Positions 49,009-64,000 of a stretch of DNA of 64,000 nt are shown here, one piece after another. Under the pieces are notes generated by a model. It did no database searches. It saw nothing but the letters and a program-made list of their open reading frames with translations, and was not told the DNA's origin. Numbering within the stretch: the first letter of the stretch is position 1; each line of letters starts with the position of its first letter. The stretch comes from Sphaerisporangium corydalis (lineage in GTDB: Bacteria; Actinomycetota; Actinomycetes; Streptosporangiales; Streptosporangiaceae): NCBI RefSeq assembly GCF_025506355.1, contig NZ_JANZYP010000024.1, forward strand, positions 1 to 64,000. The letters run 5' to 3'. Made by a program: the position numbers and the translations under genes.

Positions 49009-50823
49009 TCAGCGGTAGATCCGTTCCTGGAGGTGGTAGAGCTCGGAGTACAGGCCGGAGTGGGACACCAGTGCCCGATGATCGCCGTTCTCGACCACTT
49101 CGCCGCCGTCCAGGACCACGATCATGTCGGCCATCCGCACGGTGGTGAACCGGTGGGAGACGAACAGGGTGATCGCGCCCCTGCGGTGGCCCGCCTCACC
49201 GGACAGGGTTGCGTAACGGTCGAAGATCGCGTGCTCGGCGGCGGCGTCGAGCGCGGCGGCCGGCTCGTCCAGGACCAGCAGGAGCGGGTCCTCGCGCATC
49301 ATGCACCGGGCCAGGCCCAGCGTCTGCCACTGGCCGCCGGACAGCTCCACCCCCGGGCCGTACCCGTGGCCGAGCAGCCCGGACAGGCCGCCGGGCACGG
49401 CCGCGACGATCCCGTCGGCCCGCGCCTGCCCGACGGCCCGGGTGACCGCCGCCTCCTCCTCCACCCGGGCGACGTCGCCGACCCCCACGTTCTCGCGCAG
49501 CAGCAGCTCGAACCGGGCGAAGTCCTGGAACAGGGGGGCGACCCTGGCCCGCCATTCCCGCGGCGGGATCTCGGCCAGGTCGGCGCCGTCCACCAGGATC
49601 CGGCCCGAGGTCGGCCGGTAGAGGCCGCACAGCAGCTTGACGAGTGTGGTCTTGCCCGCGCCGTTCTCGCCGACCAGCGCCATCGAGGCCCCGGCGGGGA
49701 TCGTCAGGTCCACGTCCCGCAGGATCATCCTGCCGGTCCCGGGATAGGCGAAGCCCACCCCCTCCAGCCGGATCCCCTCCGCCAGTGCCTCCGGCACCGA
49801 AGCCCCCACGAGCGCCGCCGCCCGTCCTGAACGATCCGCCCGTGCGGCGGGCGGCGGCGGGGCGGGGTCCTGGAGGGAGGTCAGGCGGTCCAGGGTCCTG
49901 CCGACGCCCTGGAGGGCGGTGAGGAGCGTCGCCGACCCCGCCACCTGCACGCTCACCTGGACCGCCAGGGTGATGACCATGACCACGTCACCGGCGCCGG
50001 CCCGTCCGCGCGCCGCCTCCCAGATCACCAGCGTGATCGCGCCGCCGTACGCGAGGGCGAAGGCGAGCTGCCCGAGCGCCCGCACTCCGGCGGCCCGCAG
50101 GTGCGCGCTCCGCAGCGCCGCGCTGGTCCGGGACCAGCAGGCGTCCTGCTCCAGCATCAGCGGGGGCTCGGCGTGGAAGAGCCGGATCTCCTTGACCGAG
50201 GCCGGGGAGGTCGCCAGGTCGAGCAGGTGCCGGGTGCGGCGCGTGCTCTCGGCGGTCGCCTCCCTGGCCCGCTCGACCAGCCCTTGGGCCCGCTGGCCCA
50301 GAAGGACCGAGGGGAGCGCGGCCAGCGGCAGCAGGGCCAGCCGGGGATCGAGCGTCACCAGCAGCACGGTGGTCAGGCTCATCTGGAGGACCAGCCCGCC
50401 GAGCTGGAGCACCGACTCCACGGCGGTCCGGGTCTTGCCCAGCTCCTCCCTGACCAGGTTCACGCCGTCGGCGAAAGTGGAGTCGTCCAGCCGTTCCAGC
50501 CCGGACGAGCCGTTGACGGTGCGGATGAGCCGCTCGTTGAGGTCGGTCTCGGCCAGCTCGCCGACCTCGAAGTACGACAGGTGCGCGAAGTGCCCGAGCA
50601 TCAGCTCCATGACGAGCAGCACGGCGACGCCGGTGATGACCAGCGTCGCGGTGCCCGCCCGGCCGGAGACGGCGGCGTCGGTGAACTCCCGCAGGCCGAG
50701 GGCGACCAGGGGCGTGGCCAGGTAGCCCAGGGCCATCAGCCCGATCGCCTTGAGCAGCCGGACCCTGTCCACCGCGGCGGCGAGCCGCATGACGAAGACG
50801 GCGCTGCCCACGACCCACCTCAT
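49009..50823 (-). CDS. ABC exporter half-transporter
   Basis: The 604-residue protein has an N-terminal six-helix membrane domain (about residues 15-310) and a C-terminal ATPase. Walker A is GENGAGKTT, the signature is LSGGQWQ, Walker B is [13 protein letters not shown], and the switch His is in SHRFTTV. It is a type IV ABC exporter half. It lies 48 bases downstream of a second such gene, and the two probably form a heterodimer. Substrate is unknown; actinomycete pairs like this often export natural products, lipids or peptides. Start is ATG at 50823. Confidence 0.92.
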
Positions 50824-50871: not shown

Positions 50872-52719
50872 TCACCGGACCCCATCCGATCCGGGGCCGA
50901 ACCGGCGGGCCTGCAGATTGAACAGACCGGCGTACCGCCCGCCCGATCGCAGCAGCGACGCGTGGTCGCCCTGCTCGACCACGCGGCCGTGCTCGATGAC
51001 GGCGATCCGGTCGGCCCGCCGCACCGTGGAGAACCGGTGCGAGATGATCACGGTCGTCAGCCCGCCGGTGATGGCGAGGAACCGGTCGAAGAACTCCACC
51101 TCCGCCCGCACGTCGAGCTGGGCGGTGGGCTCGTCGAGCACCAGCACCGAGGCGCCCCGCTCGACCGCGAGGAAGGCGCGGGCCAGGGCGACGCGCTGCC
51201 ACTGGCCGCCCGACAGGTCGCGCCCGCCCGCGTACTGCCGGGACAGGGGGGTGTCCAGCCCGCCGGGCAGCGCCTGGACCACCTCCAGGGCCCCGGCGCG
51301 GCGGGCGGCGGCGAGCAGCGCCTCACGGTCGGTGAGGGCGTCCGGGGCGCCGAGCCCGATGTTGGCGCCCGCGGACAGCTCGTAGCGGACGTAGTCCTGG
51401 AAGATCACGGCGAGGCGGCGCTGCCAGTCCCGGGGGTCCAGCCCCCGCAGGTCCAGCCCGTCGACCGCGATCCGCCCCTGGTCCGGGTCGTACAGGCGGG
51501 CCAGCAGCTTGACCAGCGTGGTCTTGCCGGCGCCGTTCAGCCCGACGATCGCGGTCGAGGAACCTGCGGGGAGCTCCAGGTCGAGGCCGTCCAGGACGGT
51601 ACGCCCCCGGCCGTAGCCGAAGCGGACCCCCTCGAAGCGGATGCCGTGCCGGGGCAGGCCCGCCGCCGGGAGGTCGCCGCGCGGCGTCTCGCCGGCGCCG
51701 CGCCGGGCCACCTCCTCGAACGTCTCCAGCGCCTCGTAGGCGTTGAGGCCGTACTGCGTCTGGACGTCGCTCTCAGGGAAGAAGGTGCCGAAACGGACGG
51801 CCACCAGCGCGGCCTGGAGCACGATGGAGATCTCCAGCAGGCCGAGCCCGCCGAGGGCGGCGGAGCGGCCGAGCCAGAGCAGCAGGGCGGCGCCGCCGGC
51901 CAGCCCGACCAGCGTGTACCCGACGAACGGCCAGAACAGGATGCGCCTGCGGCCGGCCCACAGCGCCCCCAGGTACTCCCGCGAGTCCTGGCGGTGGCGC
52001 CGCTCGTACCAGTCGATCAGGCCCAGCGTCCGGAACTCCTTGGCCGCCGTGGGCGCCGTCCCGGTGCCGCGCAGGTAGGCGACCCGGCGGCGCGGGCCGG
52101 CCAGCTCGCGCCAGAGCGCGCCGAGCCGGCCGAGCGACCCGCGCTGGCCGTGGCGGATCACCAGGGCCGTGGCCGCCGCGACGACCGCCGCCACCGGCGA
52201 CAGCATGATCCCGATCAGGACCACCGCCCCGGCGAGCTGCGTGTACCTGGCGATCAGGGTGAGCGCCCCGGCGACCGCCTCGCCGGGGGTGGGCGGCAGG
52301 CGGCCGAGCCCGTCGCGGGCGTCCCCGAGGCCGCTCAGCACGTCCTCGCGTTCGAGCACCGCCATCGGGGCGTCGGCCAGGGCGGCGCGCATCAGCCGGC
52401 GGGCGCAGCGCCCGTCCACGCGCCGCGCGATGATCTCCCCGAGCGCGGCCTGGTAGGGGACGATCACCTGCTGGGCTATGTAGGCGCCGACGGCGAGGCC
52501 GAGCGCCGTGGCGGTGGCCGCCAGGTCGGCCGGACGACCGGCCGCGGGGGCGGCCACCTCCGCCAGCATCACGCTGGTCCAGACGATGAAACCGGCCGGG
52601 AGCAGGCCCGCGACCAGGTTCAGCGCGACCGCCGCGGCCAGCGGCCCCGGGCCCGCGTACGGGAGCAGCCGGGCGATCTCCCGCCGCCGCTCCGAGGGGC
52701 TCGCGCCGGCCGCGGTCAT
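50872..52719 (-). CDS. ABC exporter half-transporter, partner of the preceding
   Basis: The 615-residue protein has six membrane helices (about residues 18-330) and an ATPase domain. Walker A is GLNGAGKTT, the signature is LSGGQWQ, Walker B is SVLVLDEPTAQLD, and the switch His is in SHRFSTV. Both ATP sites look intact. The gene is first in a two-gene operon and is divergent from the T-box-led aspartyl-tRNA synthetase. The divergent arrangement and biosynthetic genes 7 kb away hint at export of a product, but the sequence does not show this. Start is ATG at 52719. Confidence 0.92.
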   Translation of the reverse strand: MTAAGASPSERRREIARLLPYAGPGPLAAAVALNLVAGLLPAGFIVWTSVMLAEVAAPAAGRPADLAATATALGLAVGAYIAQQVIVPYQAALGEIIARRVDGRCARRLMRAALADAPMAVLEREDVLSGLGDARDGLGRLPPTPGEAVAGALTLIARYTQLAGAVVLIGIMLSPVAAVVAAATALVIRHGQRGSLGRLGALWRELAGPRRRVAYLRGTGTAPTAAKEFRTLGLIDWYERRHRQDSREYLGALWAGRRRILFWPFVGYTLVGLAGGAALLLWLGRSAALGGLGLLEISIVLQAALVAVRFGTFFPESDVQTQYGLNAYEALETFEEVARRGAGETPRGDLPAAGLPRHGIRFEGVRFGYGRGRTVLDGLDLELPAGSSTAIVGLNGAGKTTLVKLLARLYDPDQGRIAVDGLDLRGLDPRDWQRRLAVIFQDYVRYELSAGANIGLGAPDALTDREALLAAARRAGALEVVQALPGGLDTPLSRQYAGGRDLSGGQWQRVALARAFLAVERGASVLVLDEPTAQLDVRAEVEFFDRFLAITGGLTTVIISHRFSTVRRADRIAVIEHGRVVEQGDHASLLRSGGRYAGLFNLQARRFGPGSDGVR

Positions 52720-53028: not shown

Positions 53029-54351
53029 ATGAGCTTCAGGTGTGGAGTGGCCATGCGAATTCTTTCCTCCCAGGTGTCCAAGCATGTCGGGGAAGAGGTG
53101 CGCGTCGCCGGGTGGCTGCATCGCGTGCGCGCGTTGAAGAAGGTGACCTTCGCCGTGCTGCGGGACCGTGAGGGGCTGATCCAGGTGATCGCCGCCGAGC
53201 CCGGCCTGATGCAGCGCCTCGCCGAGCTTCCCGAGGAGACCGTGATCGAGGTCGTGGGCACCGCCACGGCGAACCCGCAGGCGCCGGGCGGCGTGGAGAT
53301 CACCTCGCCGTCGGTGACCGAGCTCTCCGACCCGGCCGTCCCGCCGCCCTTCGACATCTACCGCCCGGTGGTGTCGGCGAGCCTGCCGACCGTGCTGGAC
53401 AACGCGGCGGTGGCGCTGCGCCACCCCCGGCTGCGGGCGCCGTTCGAGATCTCCGCCGCCTCGGTGGCGGGCTTCCGACGCGCGATGGAGCGGCTGGACT
53501 TCACCGACGTGCACACCCCGAAGGTGGTGTCCTCGGCCACCGAGTCCGGGGCCAACGTCTTCGCGCTCGACTGGTTCGGCCGCAAGGCCTACCTCGCGCA
53601 GTCGCCGCAGTTCTACAAGCAGACCCTGGTCGGGGTCTTCGAGCGGGTCTACGAGGTCGGGCCGGTCTTCCGCGCCGAGCCGCACGACACCGCGCGGCAC
53701 CTCGCGCAGTACACCAGCCTCGACGCCGAGCTCGGCTTCGTGACCGACCACCGCGACGTGATGGCCGTGGTCCGCGAGGCGGTGGCCGACATGGTCTCCA
53801 CCGTCGCCGAGCGCGCCGCCGGCGCGGTGGAGCTGCTCGGCGTGGAGCTGCCCGACGTGCCGGCCGAGATCCCGTCGATCCACTTCGCCGACGCGCAGGA
53901 GCTGCTGGCCCGCGAGACCGACGAGGACCCGCGCGGCGAGCCGGACCTGGCCCCCGCGCACGAGCGGTGGCTGTGCGACTGGGCGATGCGCGAGTACGGC
54001 TCCCAGTTCCTGTTCGTCAGCGGCTACCCGATGGCCAAGCGGCCGTTCTACACCCACCCCGACCCCGAGCGGCCCCAGTACTCCAACAGCTTCGACCTGC
54101 TGTTCCGCGGTCTGGAGCTGGTGACGGGCGGCCAGCGGCTGCACCGCCACTCCGACTACCTGGCGGCGCTGGCGGCGCGCGGGGAGAGCCCGGAGCCGTA
54201 CGCCGGGTACCTCGCCGCGTTCGCGCACGGCATGCCGCCGCACGGCGGGTTCGCCCTCGGCCTCGAGCGCTTCGTCGCCCGCCTGACCGGGGCGGACAAC
54301 ATCCGCTGGACCACCCTGTTCCCGCGCGACCTGCACCGCCTGGCCCCGTGA
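53029..54351 (+). CDS. aspS: Archaeal-type aspartyl-tRNA synthetase, T-box regulated
   Basis: The 440-residue class II synthetase has an N-terminal OB-fold anticodon domain (about 1-110) and a catalytic domain. Motif 2 lies in FRAEPHDTARHLAQYTSLD, and motif 3 in GGFALGLERFVARL. It lacks the GAD insertion of bacterial AspRS and resembles the short archaeal/eukaryotic type. Such enzymes may be non-discriminating and also charge tRNA-Asn. Two starts are possible: ATG 53029, five bases after the T-box-controlled site GCAGGGA, and ATG 53053 after GGAG. The T-box supports the first. A second AspRS elsewhere in the genome is likely but cannot be seen here. Confidence 0.9.
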   Translation: MSFRCGVAMRILSSQVSKHVGEEVRVAGWLHRVRALKKVTFAVLRDREGLIQVIAAEPGLMQRLAELPEETVIEVVGTATANPQAPGGVEITSPSVTELSDPAVPPPFDIYRPVVSASLPTVLDNAAVALRHPRLRAPFEISAASVAGFRRAMERLDFTDVHTPKVVSSATESGANVFALDWFGRKAYLAQSPQFYKQTLVGVFERVYEVGPVFRAEPHDTARHLAQYTSLDAELGFVTDHRDVMAVVREAVADMVSTVAERAAGAVELLGVELPDVPAEIPSIHFADAQELLARETDEDPRGEPDLAPAHERWLCDWAMREYGSQFLFVSGYPMAKRPFYTHPDPERPQYSNSFDLLFRGLELVTGGQRLHRHSDYLAALAARGESPEPYAGYLAAFAHGMPPHGGFALGLERFVARLTGADNIRWTTLFPRDLHRLAP

Positions 54352-54386: not shown

Positions 54387-56180
54387 TCACGAGCACAGGT
54401 GCCGCCTCAGGCTGTACAGGGCGGGGCCGATCAGGACCAGTGAGATCCCGGTCAGCCAGGCCAGGTGCCCCGCCGCGGCGCGCAGGTCGCCCGTGGTGAC
54501 CAGGGCCCTGGCCAGTTCCACGCCGTGCCGCAGCGGAGAGGCCTCGGCGACCGCGCGCAGCGGCGCCGGCAGCCGCGCGGTGGGGAAGAAGACCCCGCTC
54601 AGCAGGGTGAGCGGGGTCAGCACCAGCGTGTAGAAGTAGGAGTAGGCGTTGATCGCGCGTACGGTGCCGGTGAAGATCAGCCCGGCGCAGGCGAAGACCA
54701 GGCCGAGCGGGAGCAGGGCCGGCACGGCGAGCACGGCGGTGCCCGCGGGCGCGTAGCCCATCGCCGCGATGATCGCCAGGTAGACGCCGGTGTAGACCAG
54801 GCACCGGGTGAGCGCCCACATCAGCTCGCCGAGCGCGATGTCGGCCGGTTCCACGGGGCTGGTCACCGCCGCGTCGTAGCTCCGTGCGTGGCGGAGCCGC
54901 ACGAAGACGTTGTAGGTGACCTCGAAGACCGCGCCGTTCATCGCGGTGACGGCCAGCAGGCCAGGGGCGACGAAGTTCGCGTACGAGGAGCCGAGGGCGC
55001 TCCCGTTGACGTAGAACCCGAGGCCGATGCCGAGGGCCGCCAGGGAGAAGACCGGCTCGAAGAAGTTGGGGACGATGGTGGTCTTGTACGACTTGCGGAA
55101 CAGCGTGAGGTCGCGCCACCAGATCCGCGCGGCCAGGGCGGGCGACGGCGGGTAGAGGGTGCGGCGCCGGCGCGGCGCGGCGGGCGCGGGCCGCCCGGCG
55201 GGGGGGTCGGCCGAGGGGCGCTGGTCGAGGGCGTGCAGCGCGTCCTGCAGCGAGCTCGGCCTGACCATGGGCTCGGACCCTTGCAGGTCCGCCTCGGCGG
55301 CGAGGCCGGTGGCCGAGTCGTCGAACACCAGCAGGCGGTTGCCGACCCGCAGCCGCTCGCGCCGCCGGGCCCAGGCGGGCACCGGCGAGCCGGGCCGGGG
55401 GGCGTCGACCTCGACCACGTACCTCGGGACGGTCTCGGCCACCAGCCGCCGGGGGCTCGCGGTGTGCCGCACCCGCCCGGCCCGCAGGACGGTGACCCCG
55501 TCGCAGAGCCGCTCGACCTCCTCCATGTAGTGCGTGGTGACGACCAGGGTCTTGCCCGTGGCGCACAGGGTGTCGAGCAGGTCCCACAACAGCAGGCGGC
55601 CCTCGGGGTCGAGCCCGGTGCTCGGCTCGTCCAGCAGGATCAGGTCGGGGTCGTTCACCAGCGCCCTGGCGATGAGCAGGCGCCGCTGCATGCCGCCGGA
55701 CAGCGTCTCCGGGCGGGCGCGGGCGTACGCGGTGAGGCCCACGGTCGCGAGGAGCTCGTCGGCGCGGGCGGCGGAGGCCCGCCCCGACAGGCCGTGGTAG
55801 CGGCCGAAAGTGGTGAGGTTCTCCCGGACGAGGATCTCGTTGTCGTAGGTCATCCCCTGCGGGACCACGCCGATGCGGGCCTTGACGGCCCTCGGGTCGC
55901 GTGCCGCGTCGTGCCCGAGCACCCGGAGCGACCCGCTGTCGGGCGCGAGCGTGGCGCTGAGCATGCGCATGAGCGTGGTCTTCCCGGCGCCGTTCGGGCC
56001 GACCAGCCCGTGACGGCCGCCTGCGGGGATCGCGATCGAGACGCCGTCCACGGCGAGATGAGCGCCGTGCCGGCGGCGGAGGTCGCGGCCGTCCACGGCC
56101 AGGAGGCGGGGGACCGGGACGAGGGGTTCGGCGAGTGCGGTGTCGGCGTTCGCGGGGTCTACCGAATTCGGAATACTCAA
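54387..56180 (-). CDS. Fused ABC-2 ATPase and permease (NodI/NodJ or DrrA/DrrB type)
   Basis: The 597-residue protein combines an ATPase (about residues 28-330) and an ABC-2 type permease (about 345-597, six helices). Walker A is GPNGAGKTT, the signature is LSGGMQRR, Walker B is LILLDEPSTGLDPEG, and the switch His is in VVTTHYMEE. The pattern of the permease (LTLFRKSYKTTIVPNFFEPVFSLAALG, split over this span) resembles NodJ and antibiotic exporters such as DrrB. Fused forms are less usual than the two-gene arrangement. It is convergent with the tRNA-synthetase gene and divergent from the LAL regulator, so it may export the locus product. Start is ATG at 56180. Confidence 0.92.
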   Translation of the reverse strand: MSIPNSVDPANADTALAEPLVPVPRLLAVDGRDLRRRHGAHLAVDGVSIAIPAGGRHGLVGPNGAGKTTLMRMLSATLAPDSGSLRVLGHDAARDPRAVKARIGVVPQGMTYDNEILVRENLTTFGRYHGLSGRASAARADELLATVGLTAYARARPETLSGGMQRRLLIARALVNDPDLILLDEPSTGLDPEGRLLLWDLLDTLCATGKTLVVTTHYMEEVERLCDGVTVLRAGRVRHTASPRRLVAETVPRYVVEVDAPRPGSPVPAWARRRERLRVGNRLLVFDDSATGLAAEADLQGSEPMVRPSSLQDALHALDQRPSADPPAGRPAPAAPRRRRTLYPPSPALAARIWWRDLTLFRKSYKTTIVPNFFEPVFSLAALGIGLGFYVNGSALGSSYANFVAPGLLAVTAMNGAVFEVTYNVFVRLRHARSYDAAVTSPVEPADIALGELMWALTRCLVYTGVYLAIIAAMGYAPAGTAVLAVPALLPLGLVFACAGLIFTGTVRAINAYSYFYTLVLTPLTLLSGVFFPTARLPAPLRAVAEASPLRHGVELARALVTTGDLRAAAGHLAWLTGISLVLIGPALYSLRRHLCS

Positions 56181-56387: not shown

Positions 56388-56490
56388 AGCATTGCCGTGA
56401 AATGTTATGGTTTGTTGATTGCTGCGGTCGAACAATCCGCACCGTTGTGAATCGACGACGGTGAGGAGGTGCCTCCCGTCGAGAGGAACC

Positions 56491-59238
56491 ATGGAAGTTG
56501 CCGGCAGGGCGCGCGAGATCGGCATGATCGGTAAGTGGCTCGACAGCGGGACGTCCGGGCCCTGGATGGCGGTGCTGAGCGGAGACGTGGGCATCGGCAA
56601 GTCCACCATCTGGTCGACGGCGCTGGAGGTGGCGGCCGGGCGGTCGTACCAGGTCCTCTCCTGCCGGTCCGACGAGAGCGAGACCGGCCTCGCCTACGCG
56701 GGCCTCGGAGACCTGGTCAACGGCGTGGAGGGCTCGGCGGCCGTACGCGGCCTGCGCGAGCCGCTGCGCAGGGCCCTCGCCACCGCCCTGTGGTGGGAGC
56801 AGCCCGAAGGAGAGCCGCCCAGCCGGCGCGCGGTCGCCATGGCCGTCCTCGACCTGGTCAGGCGCCTGAGCGCCGAGCGGCCCGTGCTCATCGCCCTGGA
56901 CGACCTGCAGTGGCTGGACTCCGCGACCGAGGTCGTGCTCGCCTTCGTGCTCAGGCGGCTGACCGTCGAGCCCGTCAAGCTGCTCGCCACCCTGCGGACC
57001 GGGCCCGACGGCGACGCCTGGCCGGCGCTCGCCCGGGTGCTGCCCGCCGAGCGGGTCACCCGCTGGGAGGCGGGCCCGCTGAGCCCGGACGCCCTGGCCG
57101 CCGTCGTGGAGGGCCGGTACGGCACCGCGCTCACCCGGCCCCTGCTGCGGCGGCTGCACGAGGCGTGCGGCGGCAATCCCCTGTTCGGCCTGGAGATGGC
57201 CAGGGCCTGGGCCGAGCGGTCCGACCCGGCCGCCGCCATGTCCCTGCCGGAGAGCCTGCGGCACCGGCTCCGCCAGCGCGTCTCGGCGCTGTCCCCGGCC
57301 GCCGCCGAGGCGGCGCTCCTGGTCGCCTGCGCCTCCCGGCCCACCATCGGCCTGGTCGAGACCGTGACCGGCGGGCTCGAAGGGCTGGCGGAGACGACCT
57401 CCGAGTGGCTCGTCTCACTCGACGGTGAGGTCCCGCGCTTCCGCAACCCGCTGTTCGGCGTCGCGGTGCTGGAGGTCGCGGGCCCGCTGCGGCGGCGCGA
57501 TATGCATGTCCGGCTCGCCCGGGTGGTCGACGACCCGGAGGAGCGCGCGAGGCACCTCGCGGCGACCGCCGGCGAACCGGACGCGGAGGTGGCCGACACC
57601 CTGGACGACGCCGCGACCCTCGCCGCCACCCGGGGCGCCCCGCTGGTCGCGGGCGAGATGGCCATGCACGCCGCCCGCCTCACCCCCTCAGGGCAGGCCG
57701 ACATCGGGCTGCGCCGCCAGCTCGCCGCCGCCGCCCACCTGATCTCCGGCGGCGACGGAACGCGCGCCCGTGCCCTTCTGGAGGACGCCCTGCGCCGGTG
57801 CCCGCCCGGGCCCGGCAGGGCCGAGGTGTTCTTCCTGCTGGGCCGGGCCATCTTCAACTCCGGTGACATCGCGGGCTCGATCGTGCCGCTCCAGTGGGGC
57901 CGGGCCGAGATCGCCGGCCACCCCGAGCTGCTCGTCCCGATCACGGCCAGCCTCACGTACTTCTGCATGCACCTGGGCGACCTCGCCGCCGCGCTCGGGC
58001 ACGCCAGGGAGCTGCTGACCCTCGCCGAGGGGACCGGCGACCGGGCGACGCGCGACGACGCCGTCATCGTCCTGGCCACGCTGGAGTTCATGTGCAACGC
58101 CTCGGCCCCGGTGGGGCTGCCGGTGCCCGCGCGGGCCCGCGACCGCGACCGCGCGCCGCTGGTGGCCCTGCACATGTACGGCTACCTGTGCCGGTGCCTC
58201 GGGGACCTGCCCGCCGCCAAGGCCGCGTTCGCCACCCTGCGCGCCGCGGTGGCCGAGACCGGGACCGAGGCCTCCGCCGAGTGGGGGATGGTCTGGGCCG
58301 CCGAGGTGGAGTGCCTGGCCGGCGACCTCAAGGCGGCGGCGCGGTACGCCGACCTGGCCGCCCACGCCGTCCAGGAGACCGGCGTGCCCTCCTCGGCCGC
58401 CCTGTTCGCCGAGGCGCTGGTGCTCAGCCTGCGGGGCGAGCTGGACCGGGCGCGGCGGCTGGCCGGGGAGGGGCTGTCGGTGGCGCACGCCTCGGGCCAC
58501 CGGACGGCCGCGCTCACCGTGCGGGCGCTGCTCGGCTTCATCGACCTGTCCGGCGACGACCCGATGGCGGCCGTGCTGCACCTGGACGCCGCCGACCAGA
58601 TGTCCAGCTCCCTCGGCGCGGTCCTCGAAGTGGTCTGCCCGACGGCCGGAGCCGACCACGTGGAAGCGCTGGTGCTGGTCGGGCGGTATGACCAGGCCGC
58701 CGAACGCGCGGAGAGGATGCAACGGGCCGTACGGGCGATCGACCAGCCGCTGGCCAGGGGCCTGGCCGGGCGGGCGCGCGGCGTGCTGCTGACCGCCACG
58801 GGGTCGCCCAAGCGGGGCGTCGCCGAGCTGGAGGCCGCCGCCGCCGAGTTCTCCACCGCCGGGATGCCGTTCGAGCTGGCCCGCACGCTGCTGGCGCTCG
58901 GCAGGTCGCAGAACCGGCTGCGCCGGCGGGAGGCCGCGCGGCGCAGCATGGAGCGGGCCGGACGGATCTTCACCGAGCTCGGGGCCGAGGGGTGGGCCGA
59001 GCGGGCGGTGCTGCGGTCGCGCCTTTCCACGCCCAACAAGCTGACGGTCTCCGAGGCGCCGGTCGTGGCGCTGGCGGCCGAGGGGCGCACCAACCAGGAG
59101 ATCGCCGACGAGCTGGCGATCGGGGTGAAGACGGTGGAGAGCCACCTGTCCAGCGCCTACCGCAAGCTCGGCGTCCGCAGCCGCACCGAGCTGGTGGTCC
59201 GGCTGACCGCCGACCGGCGCGGCGCCGGCCAGGACTGA
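56491..59238 (+). CDS. LAL-type LuxR-family transcriptional regulator
   Basis: The 915-residue protein has an N-terminal AAA ATPase (Walker A GDVGIGKST at 31-39, Walker B VLIALDDLQWLD) and a middle region of TPR-like helices. The C-terminal LuxR helix-turn-helix covers about residues 850-910, with AEGRTNQEIADELAIGVKTV. LAL regulators are frequent pathway-specific activators of actinomycete biosynthetic clusters. It is followed by the oxygenase operon on the same strand, which it may control. The start is ATG at 56491 after GAGAGG; the longer frame from 56419 contains no conserved sequence. The stop codon falls in a 15-bp tandem repeat. Confidence 0.92.
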   Translation: MEVAGRAREIGMIGKWLDSGTSGPWMAVLSGDVGIGKSTIWSTALEVAAGRSYQVLSCRSDESETGLAYAGLGDLVNGVEGSAAVRGLREPLRRALATALWWEQPEGEPPSRRAVAMAVLDLVRRLSAERPVLIALDDLQWLDSATEVVLAFVLRRLTVEPVKLLATLRTGPDGDAWPALARVLPAERVTRWEAGPLSPDALAAVVEGRYGTALTRPLLRRLHEACGGNPLFGLEMARAWAERSDPAAAMSLPESLRHRLRQRVSALSPAAAEAALLVACASRPTIGLVETVTGGLEGLAETTSEWLVSLDGEVPRFRNPLFGVAVLEVAGPLRRRDMHVRLARVVDDPEERARHLAATAGEPDAEVADTLDDAATLAATRGAPLVAGEMAMHAARLTPSGQADIGLRRQLAAAAHLISGGDGTRARALLEDALRRCPPGPGRAEVFFLLGRAIFNSGDIAGSIVPLQWGRAEIAGHPELLVPITASLTYFCMHLGDLAAALGHARELLTLAEGTGDRATRDDAVIVLATLEFMCNASAPVGLPVPARARDRDRAPLVALHMYGYLCRCLGDLPAAKAAFATLRAAVAETGTEASAEWGMVWAAEVECLAGDLKAAARYADLAAHAVQETGVPSSAALFAEALVLSLRGELDRARRLAGEGLSVAHASGHRTAALTVRALLGFIDLSGDDPMAAVLHLDAADQMSSSLGAVLEVVCPTAGADHVEALVLVGRYDQAAERAERMQRAVRAIDQPLARGLAGRARGVLLTATGSPKRGVAELEAAAAEFSTAGMPFELARTLLALGRSQNRLRRREAARRSMERAGRIFTELGAEGWAERAVLRSRLSTPNKLTVSEAPVVALAAEGRTNQEIADELAIGVKTVESHLSSAYRKLGVRSRTELVVRLTADRRGAGQD

Positions 59239-59603: not shown

Positions 59604-60641
59604 ATGTCCAAATCGAGCGAGCCGTTGACAGAGATCCCCGTCGTCGAGATTTCCGGCGAGGAAAGGGAGTCGTTCCGCAGGGGGATCGGCCCCGTCTCCG
59701 AGAATCCGTATGAAGCGTTCGAATCGTTCCTCACACAGGTCCGCCGGGCCGAGAAGGCGCTCCCGGAGCGGGTGCGCGACGCCCTCGAAGCCCTGCGGAG
59801 CGGGAAGGCGCCGGGCGCGCTGCTCGTCAGGAACCTGCCGATCACGCCCGACCTGCCGCCGACGCCCGAGCGGTCGTTCTCCGCGCTGCCCGACCTCACC
59901 GCCGTGGGCACCGAGGCGGTGCTCGCGAGCGCCGTGAACGTGCTCGGCGAGCCGTTCAGCTACCTGGAGTGGGACTCCGGCCACCTGGTCCACAACAAGT
60001 ACCCGATCCGCGCCCACCGCGACCTGCAGTTCGGCTCCAACGCGGTGGAGTTCCTCCTGCACACCGAGACGCCCTTCCGCGACGTCTCCCCCGACTACCT
60101 CGCCCTGCTCTGCCTGCGCGGCGACCCGACCGGCCAGGCCAAGACCAGGGTCTCCGACATCACCCGCGTGGTCGACTCCCTGGACGACGACGCCCTCGCG
60201 GTGCTGTCCAGGCCGCTCTACGCGTTCGAGACCGACAACCCCCTCGTCATCGTGGACGGGCGCGGGCTCACCGAACCGCAGCCGATCATCAGCCACCGGG
60301 ACGGCACCCGGGTGATCGAGTACGTGGGCGACCTCGTCGCCGTCGAGGAGGAGGCCGCGCGCGTGCTGGACGACCTGGGCCGCCGGGTGCTGGCCATCGC
60401 CACCGACGTGGCGCTGTCCCAGGGAGACCTGCTCGTGCTGGACAACTCCCGCGTCGTGCACGGGCGCAACGCCATCGTCCCGAGCTACGACGGCACCGAC
60501 CGGTGGCTGCAGCGCATGCTCGTCACCACCCGCCTGCTCGGCGGCGAGCCACGGACGGACGGCCGCCTGGTCTCCGACCGGCGTTACGCGAACTACCCCA
60601 ACGACTACCAGCAGGCGCTCCGTCAGCCCGCCGCCCAGTAG
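59604..60641 (+). CDS. Clavaminate-synthase-like Fe(II)/2-oxoglutarate oxygenase (first)
   Basis: The 345-residue protein belongs to the TauD/CAS-like non-heme iron oxygenases related to AsnO and VioC amino-acid hydroxylases. The iron facial triad is His153 and Glu155 in LLHTETPF and His286 in RVVHGRN. The 2-oxoglutarate-binding Arg is in DRWLQR at 299-304. It is likely to hydroxylate or desaturate an amino acid or amino-acid-derived small molecule in the cytoplasm. It is first in an operon with an amidohydrolase, a radical SAM enzyme and a related oxygenase. The start is ATG at 59604; the ribosome binding site is weak (GGAACGG). Substrate unknown. Confidence 0.9.
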   Translation: MSKSSEPLTEIPVVEISGEERESFRRGIGPVSENPYEAFESFLTQVRRAEKALPERVRDALEALRSGKAPGALLVRNLPITPDLPPTPERSFSALPDLTAVGTEAVLASAVNVLGEPFSYLEWDSGHLVHNKYPIRAHRDLQFGSNAVEFLLHTETPFRDVSPDYLALLCLRGDPTGQAKTRVSDITRVVDSLDDDALAVLSRPLYAFETDNPLVIVDGRGLTEPQPIISHRDGTRVIEYVGDLVAVEEEAARVLDDLGRRVLAIATDVALSQGDLLVLDNSRVVHGRNAIVPSYDGTDRWLQRMLVTTRLLGGEPRTDGRLVSDRRYANYPNDYQQALRQPAAQ

Positions 60642-60674
60642 GAGAGAACGCCGCAGCCCTGGAGGACTCGGACC

Positions 60675-61817
60675 ATGTGGAACGGCTACCCGGTCGTCGA
60701 CGCCGACGGCCACGTCATCGAACCCGGGACGCTCTGGGAGCAGTACGTCGAGCCCGCGTTCCGCGACACCTGCCTGCGGGTGGAACGCGATCGGCTCGAC
60801 GGCGACCGCCTGATCATCGAGGGCCGGCCCTCCCGGCTGATCCGCAGGCTCGGCGGCGTCCCGTACGACCCGGAGCAGCCCATCCACGACTGGAACACCC
60901 TGCAGCTCAAGGAGTACGCGTCGTTCCTGGAGTCGAGCCCGCCCGCGTCCTACGACGGCGCGGCGCGGGTGCGGTGGCTGGACGAGCAGGACATCGAGGC
61001 GACGCTGCTGTTCCCGTCGCTCGGGCTGATCTGGCCGAGGGAGGTCGACCCCGCCTCCCCGTACGCCGTCGCGCACTTCCGGGCCTACAACCGGTGGATG
61101 GCCGACTACGCCTCGGCGGACCCCGGCCGGATCGTCCCGGTGGGGCAGCTCTCCCTGTCCCCGCTCCTCGGCCTGGCCGAGGAGGTGAAGGCGCTCGACG
61201 CGGCCGGGTTCCGGCACGTCATGCTCCCGCACGGGGTCACGGGCCACCTCGACACGCGCCTGGACCCGTTCTGGGCCGCCGCGCAGCACCACGGCATGGT
61301 GGTCCACCTGCACAAGGTCGCCGTGCCGCACCTGCTGCCGCTGCCCCTGCCGACCAGCGTGCACTCCTCAGGCCCCGGCGCCTTCTTCAACCACGTCAAC
61401 GAGATCCTGCCGGGCCAGCTCTTCCTGGCCGGGCTCCTGGACGCCCGCGTCCCCGACCGGTTCCCCGGCCTGCGATTCGCCTTCCACGAGTGCAACATCG
61501 GCTGGCTGCCCGCGTGGCTCGAACGCGCGCAGGAGTCCTACGAGACGCTGCGCGAGACCGGCAGGCCCACCCCCGACCACCTGCCGCACCACTACCTGTA
61601 CGAGCGGGACACCTTCTTCTTCTCGACGGGCCTCGGCGAACGGCTGGAGCGGCTCCCCGAAGAGCTCCACTCCCGGGTCCTGCTGGCCACCGACTTCCCG
61701 CACCCGGGGACGCCGTTCCGGCCCCGGGAGGAATGGGAGCCGGTGCTGGAGGGGCTTCCCGCGAAACTGCGCCCCGCCCTGCTCGGCGAGAACGCCCTGC
61801 GCCTGCTGGACAAGTGA
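60675..61817 (+). CDS. Amidohydrolase-family protein (ACMSD-like)
   Basis: The 380-residue protein belongs to the amidohydrolase-2 family, which includes ACMSD-type decarboxylases and hydrolases. The N-terminal metal motif is DADGHVIEP, with His13. A mid motif HLHKVAVPH may hold another ligand, and the late metal Asp is in LLATDFPHPG near 337-346. Family members decarboxylate or hydrolyse aromatic or acidic substrates through one metal ion. The start is ATG at 60675, eight bases after GGAGG, 33 bases after the oxygenase stop. Substrate unknown. Confidence 0.88.
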   Translation: MWNGYPVVDADGHVIEPGTLWEQYVEPAFRDTCLRVERDRLDGDRLIIEGRPSRLIRRLGGVPYDPEQPIHDWNTLQLKEYASFLESSPPASYDGAARVRWLDEQDIEATLLFPSLGLIWPREVDPASPYAVAHFRAYNRWMADYASADPGRIVPVGQLSLSPLLGLAEEVKALDAAGFRHVMLPHGVTGHLDTRLDPFWAAAQHHGMVVHLHKVAVPHLLPLPLPTSVHSSGPGAFFNHVNEILPGQLFLAGLLDARVPDRFPGLRFAFHECNIGWLPAWLERAQESYETLRETGRPTPDHLPHHYLYERDTFFFSTGLGERLERLPEELHSRVLLATDFPHPGTPFRPREEWEPVLEGLPAKLRPALLGENALRLLDK

Positions 61818-61861
61818 CCCCTTCGCCCGCCCGGCGATCCATCTCCCCGGTGGAGGACTTC

Positions 61862-62977
61862 ATGAAACGTGACACCGTCCGCGATTCCCGAACACCAGTG
61901 GAACTGAAGAACCTGCATCGGGTGCGGATCGAAGAGGTCTTCCGGCTCGGCGCCCTCCGCGACGGCGTGCGTTTCGCCACCACCGAGATCCGGCTCCCCA
62001 TCCTGGGGCAGGTGCTGCCGCGCATCGAGATCGTGATCAGCGGCCCCGGCTTCCAGAAGAAGATCACGGTGCGGGTGAGCCAGTCGTCCCCGTTCGTCTT
62101 CGACGGCTCCCGGCTGAGCGCGCTGATCAACGGCGAGGAGCGCGGGGTCGACTGCGAGCAGTTCGTGGACGAGGACCGCGCGCCGACCGGGATGTACAAC
62201 TTCGGGTTGCTGCGCGAGAACGGCACCCGCAGCTTCGTCTTCGACTACCACACCTACTGCGCCTACTCCTGCGACTTCTGCTTCAAGGAGAGCGAGTGGG
62301 AGGTGCTGTCGGTCCAGCAGGCGAAGACCGGCAACTACAAGGCCAACTTCGAGGAGTGCCTGACCTACGTCGGCGAGCACGCCGAGGACTTCCACACCAA
62401 GTACGACATCGTCTGGCTGTGCACCGGCAGCATCACCAACGAGGCGGTGGAGCTGGACCGCCACTGCCGGATGGCGCGGACGCTGCGCGAGGCCGGCTAC
62501 CAGGAGGGGATCTACGTCTCGCAGGTGATCCCGCCGAGCCTCATCGGGCACAGGGAACGCCGGCTCGAATACCTGAACACCCTGCGGGAGTCCGGTGTGT
62601 CCCGCTTCAACAGCGGGATCGAGGTGGTCAGCTCCGACTACCGCCGCCGGCTCATCCACGGGTACAAGGCGGACATCACCTTCGACGACTACGTGGACGT
62701 GTTCACCGACGCGGTGGAGGTGTTCGGCGCCCACAACGTCGGCAGCTGCCTGCTGGCCGGGATCGAACCCGCCGAGGAGACCCTGCGCGGGCTGCGCAGG
62801 ATCGCCGAGCTGGGCGTCGTCCCCTCGCCCACGGTCTTCACCGCGTTCGTGGTCAAGCAGGAGAGCATCCCGTTCATGTACGACCTGGACGAGCTCATCG
62901 ACGTGCACGTCCGGTTCAACGAGATCATCGACCACTACGGGCTGCCCGTCTTCTCGGGGGTATTCAGCCTTGCCTGA
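61862..62977 (+). CDS. Radical SAM enzyme with uncharacterised N-terminal domain
   Basis: The 371-residue protein binds a 4Fe-4S cluster through Cys133, Cys137 and Cys140 (CAYSCDFC, canonical CxxxCxxC) and cleaves SAM to make a 5'-deoxyadenosyl radical. The barrel follows (VWLCTGSITNEAVELDRH). Residues 1-125 form a beta-rich domain of a type I do not recognise (IRLPILGQVLPRIEIVIS). There is no SPASM C-terminal extension; the protein ends soon after the barrel. The start is ATG at 61862, six bases after GGAGG. The last eight bases overlap the next gene. The reaction is unknown. Confidence 0.9.
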   Translation: MKRDTVRDSRTPVELKNLHRVRIEEVFRLGALRDGVRFATTEIRLPILGQVLPRIEIVISGPGFQKKITVRVSQSSPFVFDGSRLSALINGEERGVDCEQFVDEDRAPTGMYNFGLLRENGTRSFVFDYHTYCAYSCDFCFKESEWEVLSVQQAKTGNYKANFEECLTYVGEHAEDFHTKYDIVWLCTGSITNEAVELDRHCRMARTLREAGYQEGIYVSQVIPPSLIGHRERRLEYLNTLRESGVSRFNSGIEVVSSDYRRRLIHGYKADITFDDYVDVFTDAVEVFGAHNVGSCLLAGIEPAEETLRGLRRIAELGVVPSPTVFTAFVVKQESIPFMYDLDELIDVHVRFNEIIDHYGLPVFSGVFSLA

Positions 62978-63875
62978 ACTGGAGACGCGCGGCGCGGAGC
63001 TGAGCCTGACCGAGGAGACCGCCGGCGAGATCGCACGCTGGTCCTCGGCCCTGGCCGGGGACGCGTACCGCGCGGCGGAACGGTCCCGGGCCGAGGCGCC
63101 CGGACTGGCCTTCGTCGCGCCCGATCTGGCGGCCGAAGTGGTGCGCTTCGGCCGCCTGCTCGGGCGGGCCGGCCTGCTGCGCGTCACCGGGGTGCGGATC
63201 CCCGGCCGCCTCCCGCCGACACCCGGCCGGCCGTACGTGGAGGTGCGGCGGCCGGTCGGGACCGAACCGCTGCTGCTGGCCGTCGCCGGCCTGGCCGGCG
63301 AGGTCGTCTCGTTCGCCGACTGGCACGGAGGCGACCGGGTGCAGAACCTGTACCCGCTGCGCTCGGAGGCCGGGCGGCAGAACGCGAGCAACGCCGTCCA
63401 CCTGGAGATGCACACCGAGACGGCGTTCCGCCCCACCACCCCCGACGCCCTCGCGCTGCTCTGCCTGCGGCACGACGACCGCGCCCGCACCCTGGCCTGC
63501 GACCTGCTGGACGTGTGGGCCGGCCTGGACTCCGGCGTGAGACGGGCGCTGGCCGAGCCCGCGTACGCCTTCGAGCTCCCCGGAGGGACGACCACCGAGC
63601 CCAAGCCGGTGGCCACCGAGTGGCGCGGCCGGCCGCGTTTCAACTACGCCGACGCGGTGTGCTCGGTGGACGCCGAGCACCGGGGGGCCCTGCTGGCGCT
63701 CAAGGAGGGCATCCGCGACCGGACCACGCAGATCACCCTCATGGCGGGGGACCTGCTGCTCATCGACAACACCCACGTCGTCCACGGCCGCACCGGCTAC
63801 GGGCCCCGCTACGACGGCGGCGACCGCTGGCTGCAACGCTGCCTGATCCGGGCCGCCCCGGGGGAACGGGAGTGA
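62970..63875 (+). CDS. Clavaminate-synthase-like Fe(II)/2-oxoglutarate oxygenase (second)
   Basis: The 301-residue protein is a paralogue of the first oxygenase in this operon. It keeps the iron ligands in MHTETAFRP and HVVHGRTG and the 2OG-binding segment GGDRWLQR. The best start is TTG at 62970, overlapping the radical SAM stop by eight bases and nine bases after GGGGG. Two related oxygenases in one operon usually act at successive steps, for example two hydroxylations or a hydroxylation and a desaturation; which occur here is unknown. The following gene starts one base after the stop codon. Confidence 0.88.
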   Translation: MPELETRGAELSLTEETAGEIARWSSALAGDAYRAAERSRAEAPGLAFVAPDLAAEVVRFGRLLGRAGLLRVTGVRIPGRLPPTPGRPYVEVRRPVGTEPLLLAVAGLAGEVVSFADWHGGDRVQNLYPLRSEAGRQNASNAVHLEMHTETAFRPTTPDALALLCLRHDDRARTLACDLLDVWAGLDSGVRRALAEPAYAFELPGGTTTEPKPVATEWRGRPRFNYADAVCSVDAEHRGALLALKEGIRDRTTQITLMAGDLLLIDNTHVVHGRTGYGPRYDGGDRWLQRCLIRAAPGERE

Positions 63876-63876
63876 G

Positions 63877-64000
63877 GTGGCCGGCCAGGCGGGCGAGACC
63901 CGTCCCGTCAGGCTCGGGCTCGCCTGCACCGGCTGGATCGCCGAATGGGCCGTCCACCAGCCGATCAGGGACGGCTCCCCGGCCACCGTGGCGTTCGTCG
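63877..64000 (+). CDS. Gfo/Idh/MocA-family oxidoreductase, N-terminal end only
   Basis: Forty-one codons are visible before the right edge. After a short lead comes the segment VRLGLACTGWIAEWAVHQP, which fits the N-terminal Rossmann NAD(P)-binding motif of Gfo/Idh/MocA dehydrogenases. These oxidise hydroxyls of sugars, inositols and related compounds. The start is GTG at 63877, one base after the oxygenase stop, so it belongs to the same operon. The assignment rests on a short stretch. Confidence 0.65.
   Translation, partial: MAGQAGETRPVRLGLACTGWIAEWAVHQPIRDGSPATVAFV

Follow-up and report, generated by a model that had tools for sequence, protein, structure and literature searches.

A conserved actinobacterial gene cluster with a candidate self-resistance aspartyl-tRNA synthetase in Sphaerisporangium corydalis

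What do five closely packed genes at the end of a stretch of Sphaerisporangium corydalis DNA make, and what would their product act on? The stretch, hereafter the window, is 64,000 nucleotides long (positions 1 to 64,000 of contig NZ_JANZYP010000024.1, here C80, of 109,433 bases) and belongs to a genome of 9.48 Mb (G000). The five genes encode two clavaminate-synthase-like (CAS-like) oxygenases, CAS1 and CAS2, an amidohydrolase-family enzyme (AH), a variant radical S-adenosylmethionine enzyme (rSAM) and a Gfo/Idh/MocA oxidoreductase. They are part of a larger cluster, and our answer starts from its gene content, its order and conservation, its linkage to archaeal-type aspartyl-tRNA synthetases (AspRS) of two classes, and the deletion of the housekeeping gene aspS in two carriers. 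Judging from these genomic data, the cluster probably makes a small amino-acid-derived inhibitor of bacterial AspRS, free of nonribosomal peptide synthetases (NRPS) and polyketide synthases (PKS), and the archaeal-type AspRS would confer self-resistance. With somewhat less confidence, we also favour the broader view that CAS-type oxygenase, amidohydrolase and variant rSAM form an NRPS- and PKS-free route to an AspRS blocker, that a resistant AspRS was recruited at least twice, and that it replaced the housekeeping enzyme in some Sphaerisporangium.

An archaeal-type AspRS beside the radical SAM gene

The rSAM protein was searched for in 250 genomes of the window's family, in 297 genomes of Streptomycetaceae (a family name that was inferred), in 396 genomes across the phylum, and in a collection of named genomes. 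It was found in 7 of the 250, including the window genome, and in 4 of the 297, one of these being a C-terminal scrap only; the 396 genomes gave nothing beyond the window's own match. Six rSAM loci, overlapping with those already given, came from the named genomes; two Mesorhizobium plasmids also have the gene. There are 11 full-length actinobacterial loci, in 10 genomes, and at each of them an archaeal-type AspRS gene adjoins rSAM, at 127-7513 bp. That is, an extra synthetase for the proposed target amino acid, distinct from the housekeeping type, is linked to the biosynthetic genes in 11 of 11 loci.

Two types of cluster can be described. The extended type, that of the window, has the order ABCa-ABCb-AspRS-EXP-LAL-CAS1-AH-rSAM-CAS2-(Gfo/Idh)-Rieske-importer-GT2-unknown, which is repeated in S. 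rufum (G129) and in two Microbispora species, both of the latter without Gfo/Idh. Genome G672 has an extended variant, CAS1-AH-rSAM-CAS2-Gfo/Idh-Rieske-AspRS, with the same exporters and no importer or LAL gene seen. The first-pass annotation had read the five genes as one operon, and their joint occurrence elsewhere bears this out: all five are found together in S. rufum and G672, and four of them, without Gfo/Idh, in the two Microbispora. Because the gene order recurs in other species and genera, the five-gene arrangement is not a product of chance. The compact type, CAS1-AH-rSAM-AspRS, is found in Actinocorallia populi, Streptacidiphilus melanogenes, G797 and G672, and in reduced form in G103 (AH-rSAM-AspRS) and Actinocorallia sp. 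API 0066 (rSAM-AspRS only). AspRS and rSAM are 7380-7513 bp apart in four loci, 3322 bp in the extended copy of G672 and 127-265 bp in five; in Streptacidiphilus the distance is about 133 bp, the raw value of 794 bp reflecting a partly masked gene whose match was counted from behind the mask.

On contig C1 of G672 (L117, L118), a compact and an extended cluster are separated by about 1.2 Mb and have AspRS of different classes. A tree was built from 42 AspRS sequences, 10 of them cluster copies, the masked Streptacidiphilus copy being left out; in it, cluster AspRS fall in both of two deeply separated classes, with five changes of label, at least four of which are forced by well-supported branches. 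Compact and extended clusters use different classes although their rSAM proteins are close, at about 0.6 changes per column (window against G797 and against G672). Since the two classes split by cluster type while rSAM stays close, different AspRS appear to have been recruited to related pathways.

Judged by sequence, the cluster AspRS of both classes appear functional. They keep the anticodon-binding and class II parts, with tRNA-synt_2 and OB-fold domains, and pass the NF003483 (aspartate--tRNA(Asn) ligase) cut-off of 353 bits, the compact-type copy with 476.5 bits and the window copy as in Table 1. Against TIGR00458 (cut-off 368.4) the window copy falls just under, at 367.3 bits, and the compact copy scores 385.7. 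The closest solved structure to the window copy is Thermus AspRS-2 (1n9w, 3kfu; 392.5 bits), of the non-discriminating archaeal type; the window copy differs from it by its place among biosynthesis-type genes and by being the sole AspRS detected in its genome. In the alignment, the window-type clade is distinguished by eight columns, dispersed along the sequence, and the compact clade by six.

Archaeal-type AspRS genes occur anywhere in the genome in 84 of the 250 and 77 of the 297 genomes (34% and 26%). For one randomly placed copy, the probability of lying within 8 kb of rSAM is about 0.002-0.003 per locus, with loci that are related by descent and so not independent. Furthermore, among 15 genomes of the Microbispora group, both AspRS and rSAM are present in two (G065, G205) and neither in 13, a distribution expected by chance in 1 of 105 cases. 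Stand-alone archaeal-type AspRS genes, with varied neighbours and in genomes without rSAM, were seen at L057, L058, L098-L107, L130, L131, L133, L135-L139 and L141; at L103 and L105 they adjoin the bacterial aspS.

Deletion of the housekeeping aspS

The bacterial AspRS profile was matched in 12 of 14 genomes checked and was missing in the window genome and S. rufum; among the 10 cluster carriers, 8 keep the bacterial aspS and two have lost it. In G031, G182 and G065, aspS is flanked by hisS on one side and a conserved downstream gene on the other, ahead of rarA and alaS. The same hisS neighbours stand in the same order in the window genome and in S. rufum without aspS, the gap from hisS to the downstream gene being 124 and 98 bp, respectively. 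A tblastn search with the aspS product of G182 found no aspS in either genome, the single match, in the window genome, covering 18 residues at E 0.68. For comparison, bacterial aspS was found in 240 of the 250 family genomes; the 10 genomes that lack it include the window genome and S. rufum, with a completeness of at least 99%, and eight others with a completeness of 67-93%. The window's genus group is represented by 11 genomes, and in it aspS is missing from exactly those two that have rSAM, a coincidence expected by chance in 1 of 55 cases. Because the archaeal-type copy is the only AspRS found in these two genomes, it must serve translation there.

Two further genomes retain AspRS where other cluster genes have gone. 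G182, of the same genus, has kept the window's chromosomal neighbourhood and an AspRS 89% identical to the window copy (L096, L097); exporters, regulator and biosynthetic genes are absent from the site, and bacterial aspS is retained in the genome. In G803 an intact compact-type AspRS stands next to the last 48 residues of an rSAM. Both would fit a resistance gene that has outlived its cluster. The G182 site also allows an alternative order of events, in which AspRS was in place before the other cluster genes, which were later added on either side of it. Against this order, the Microbispora blocks carry AspRS in other chromosomal surroundings, and the AspRS of the five genomes concerned form one clade (98/100), apart from the other Sphaerisporangium-group AspRS in the tree.

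The window genome contains other genes with a possible relation to aspartate. Contig C83 (L060:2271-4571) has an asparagine-synthetase-A-like gene (NF005052, 406 bits, over the cut-off) that adjoins a methylaspartate-mutase-E-like gene (165 bits, under the cut-off), and contig C87 (L059:1014-2297) has another methylaspartate-mutase-E-like gene near a second AspRS-like match. These are possibly separate aspartate-related loci.

Extent of the cluster and its enzymes

The cluster starts near 49.0 kb of the window and ends near 72.5 kb of contig C80, and the five genes are only a part of it. The first-pass annotation had placed the five genes on one strand with short gaps; their open reading frames (ORFs) give the same coordinates and spacing (33 bases, 44 bases, an 8-base overlap and 1 base, in order), and the motifs that it had named were located, HTE at residues 153 and 148 and the distal HGR at 286 and 272 in CAS1 and CAS2, respectively, and CAYSCDFC, a CxxxCxxC motif, at residue 133 of rSAM. 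Upstream lies a 939-residue ORF with AAA_16 at 27-186 and LuxR-type GerE at 875-927, which fits the N-terminal ATPase and C-terminal LuxR helix-turn-helix of a LAL regulator, a kind of protein that the annotation had named as a frequent controller of biosynthetic clusters. The five genes it grouped are thus real, and the borders it drew were too narrow, having been imposed by the end of the window: the operon runs on past 64 kb, and the first cluster genes lie upstream of the five. The annotation had also missed the exporters, the importer, the Rieske oxygenase and the glycosyltransferase. GC content at the third codon position is 0.94-0.97 for CAS1, amidohydrolase and Gfo/Idh, the three of the five genes that passed the ORF filter.

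Table 1 Genes of the cluster on contig C80 (numbering up to 64,000 is that of the window). Pfam cut-offs in bits: TauD 27, Amidohydro_2 26.4, Gfo/Idh 24, Radical_SAM 29.5.
Feature	Position	Strand	Support or remark
ABCa, exporter-type half-transporter (MsbA-related profile match)	49009..50823	-	ABC_tran 96.5 bits; TIGR02204 211 bits, under cut-off
ABCb, partner half-transporter	50872..52719	-	ABC_tran 93.7 bits
Archaeal-type AspRS	53059..54351 (alternative start 53029)	+	NF003483 549.8 bits
EXP, fused ATPase and ABC-2 permease, exporter type	54387..56180	-	ABC_tran 115, ABC2_membrane 76.7 bits
LAL-type regulator	56419..59238 (true start possibly farther downstream)	+	AAA_16 61.4, GerE 52.1 bits
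CAS1, CAS-like Fe/2-oxoglutarate oxygenase	59604..60641	+	TauD 59 bits; HTE and distal HGR
AH, amidohydrolase-family metal-dependent enzyme	60675..61817	+	Amidohydro_2 68.2 bits
rSAM, variant group, beta-rich N-terminal part	61862..62977	+	CAYSCDFC; Radical_SAM 29.0 bits
CAS2, second CAS-like oxygenase	62970..63875	+	TauD 51.8 bits; TTG start
Gfo/Idh/MocA oxidoreductase	63877..64878 (63877..64000 in window)	+	Gfo/Idh 66.8 bits; crosses window end
Rieske oxygenase	64875..65984		operon, outside window
ABC ATPase (importer)	65971..66756		operon, outside window
Permease (importer)	66749..67513		operon, outside window
Permease (importer)	67510..68274		operon, outside window
NMT1/THI5-like binding protein (importer)	68291..69328		operon, outside window
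Family-2 glycosyltransferase (GT2)	69306..70553		operon, outside window
Unknown 661-residue protein	70550..72535 (L009:15551-17536)		operon end, outside window

ABCa and ABCb are syntenic in four genomes (S. rufum, two Microbispora and G672), EXP is syntenic in all four extended relatives, and the LAL regulator is 66-70% identical across three syntenic loci. The 661-residue protein has counterparts of 56-65% identity in three other clusters; in Pfam and NCBIfam it matched nothing above cut-off, a sub-threshold Pre-ATP-grasp match being all that was seen, and an AlphaFold model of its homologues (two sequences) had a pLDDT of 32.7, too low to use. Of the ORFs listed for the region between about 40 and 95 kb, none was recognised as an NRPS or PKS gene.

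CAS1 and CAS2 both have the TauD profile and the HxE...H metal motif of CAS-like Fe/2-oxoglutarate oxygenases of the TauD superfamily. The closest solved match of CAS1 is asparagine oxygenase (2og5, 119.5 bits), and those of CAS2 are lysine 3-hydroxylase and asparagine oxygenase; together with VioC and clavaminate synthase, these solved relatives act on amino acids. In fold family and in the HTE...H motif, the two oxygenases agree with the group of AsnO, KDO1, VioC, GntD and clavaminate synthase. However, both lie far under every named equivalog cut-off: for clavaminate synthase, VioC and GntD (450, 418.6 and 345 bits), CAS1 scored 135.2, 117.5 and 156.6 and CAS2 89.8, 103.1 and 115.7, respectively. 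The closest solved match of the amidohydrolase is PtmU3 (88.3 bits).

rSAM lies 0.5 bit under the Pfam cut-off for Radical_SAM, and it is assigned to the radical SAM superfamily by its CxxxCxxC motif and its predicted barrel fold. The AlphaFold model, built on seven sequences (pLDDT 69, pTM 0.74), has a beta-rich N-terminal part followed by a radical SAM barrel. Because several families tie at Z 12-14 as fold matches (lipoyl synthase LipA, biotin synthase BioB, MqnE, HydG, HydE and ThiH), no reaction can be read from the model. In a PDB sequence search that admitted E values up to 1, rSAM had no match. The seven-row alignment shows six invariant cysteines, the three of the SAM motif and C166, C187 and C296. 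A relationship over the radical SAM core was detectable to NF045502 (76.4 bits, cut-off 125) and to the MSMEG_0568 family TIGR04043 (45.8 bits, cut-off 303.7), both cut-offs being missed. We take the latter family to be tied to Nit1C nitrilase clusters, whereas the present cluster has no nitrilase gene.

Homologues of rSAM, 58.5% identical and annotated as hypothetical, are encoded on plasmids of Mesorhizobium sp. AR02 and AR10 (L108:12583-16116, L109:9584-13116), with the rSAM gene about 630 bp downstream of queC-queD-queE. A link of the Mesorhizobium rSAM to 7-deazaguanine chemistry is possible on this arrangement; no que gene was recognised in the actinobacterial clusters, and the gap between que genes and rSAM is of the size just given.

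Proposed pathway and competing explanations

The exporters, the regulator and the amino-acid-type oxygenases fit biosynthesis. In the pathway that we propose, the LAL regulator would turn on the operon. CAS1, judged by its nearest relative, would hydroxylate a free amino acid, asparagine- or aspartate-like, which the amidohydrolase-family enzyme and rSAM may convert into a compound that mimics aspartate or aspartyl-adenylate. Extended clusters would tailor this compound further with CAS2, the Gfo/Idh enzyme and the Rieske oxygenase, and possibly decorate it with the glycosyltransferase. The ABC exporters would secrete the product, while the NMT1-type importer may take in a precursor or recover the product. 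The producer would survive with an archaeal-type AspRS that the compound does not hit, and in the window organism and S. rufum this copy would have taken over fully from the deleted housekeeping aspS. The first-pass annotation had proposed a small amino-acid-derived metabolite made without NRPS or PKS. This is supported in part, by the conserved biosynthesis-like operon with its two CAS-like oxygenases, by the amino acid substrates of their nearest solved relatives, and by the lack of recognised NRPS or PKS genes; what it had overlooked is the AspRS gene and the loss of the housekeeping aspS, because of which a likely target can be named.

There are known systems of this kind. Among the self-resistance synthetases given in a 2022 review (PMC9437257) are SerRS2 for albomycin, IleRS2 for mupirocin and TrpRS1 for indolmycin; its table of duplicated synthetases lists no resistance role for AspRS. 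The likeness lies in an additional synthetase for one amino acid, deeply divergent from the usual one, beside antibiotic-type biosynthesis genes. The present case differs in the amino acid, aspartate, in the use of two AspRS classes, and in the disappearance of the housekeeping copy from two species. Microcin C, described in a 2021 review (PMC7916415) as an AspRS inhibitor, has the same proposed target, but it is a peptide-nucleotide, and its cluster has other immunity enzymes, MccE and MccF. None of the window's five genes resembles a peptide-adenylating pathway. To our knowledge, few natural AspRS inhibitors besides microcin C exist. In the open-access papers searched, neither a case of self-resistance through AspRS nor a pathway with this set of genes was found, in line with the first-pass annotation, which had not recognised it as a described pathway.

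Several observations weigh against an AspRS inhibitor with target replacement. Archaeal-type AspRS is not rare and mostly stands alone, and a distance of 7.5 kb, with a divergently oriented gene in it, separates the window-type copy from rSAM. In the stretches compared, cluster AspRS showed no active-site change of their own: the ESG-containing loop, QSPQ and motif 2 do not separate cluster-linked from stand-alone copies. Two compact loci lack CAS1 and one of them also lacks the amidohydrolase; moreover, tblastn pieces hint at frame breaks in the Streptacidiphilus CAS1 and in the amidohydrolase of the compact G672 copy, so that several compact loci may be decaying. The loss of aspS could be a single event in a common ancestor of the two related species. 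Near the rSAM homologues of Mesorhizobium there are no genes for AspRS, a CAS-like oxygenase or an amidohydrolase, so the enzyme can apparently serve in another setting. Finally, substrate, reactions, product, target and resistance are all inferred from genomic data.

AspRS could instead be a biosynthetic enzyme, supplying Asp-tRNA or Asp-AMP as the donor of an aspartate residue that is added to the metabolite. The constant linkage in 11 of 11 loci and the position of AspRS at the end of the compact operon suit this idea, as does the precedent of SbzA, an IleRS homologue that the 2022 review describes as playing such a part in the altemicidin/SB-203207 pathway (PMC9437257). However, we consider it unlikely: among the genes of the compact loci none was recognised as a tRNA-dependent transferase, the AspRS in use belong to two unrelated classes, both classes keep the anticodon-binding and class II parts and pass the synthetase cut-off, the gene is kept in G182 and G803 where other cluster genes were lost, and in two genomes the only AspRS found must serve translation.

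Quite unlikely, too, is a chance neighbour, that is, a spare housekeeping-type AspRS beside genes for an amino-acid-derived metabolite with an unrelated target. The many stand-alone copies with their varied neighbours and the AspRS of G182, at the same site without the cluster, speak for it. Random placement agrees poorly with a linkage that is complete and involves two classes, the AspRS-bearing blocks of Microbispora have a different chromosomal context, and among the 15 Microbispora-group genomes only cluster carriers have the gene.

A catabolic operon for the uptake and degradation of an amino-acid-like or aromatic compound is very improbable, although NMT1-type importers, Rieske and TauD-fold oxygenases and amidohydrolases are, as general background, frequent in catabolism, since the surroundings of the compact copies and of the extended G672 copy showed no importer gene, the exporters, LAL regulator, glycosyltransferase and AspRS point elsewhere, and the closest solved oxygenases are biosynthetic.

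If the proposal of an AspRS inhibitor with a resistant AspRS is true, the three-gene biosynthetic core with its built-in target candidate would be a testable antibiotic lead and would hold a new radical SAM reaction. It could also explain the retention of an archaeal-type AspRS by 34% and 26% of the genomes sampled from two actinomycete families, and the deletion of aspS after arrival of the cluster-borne copy would show clearly that a target can be fully replaced in nature.

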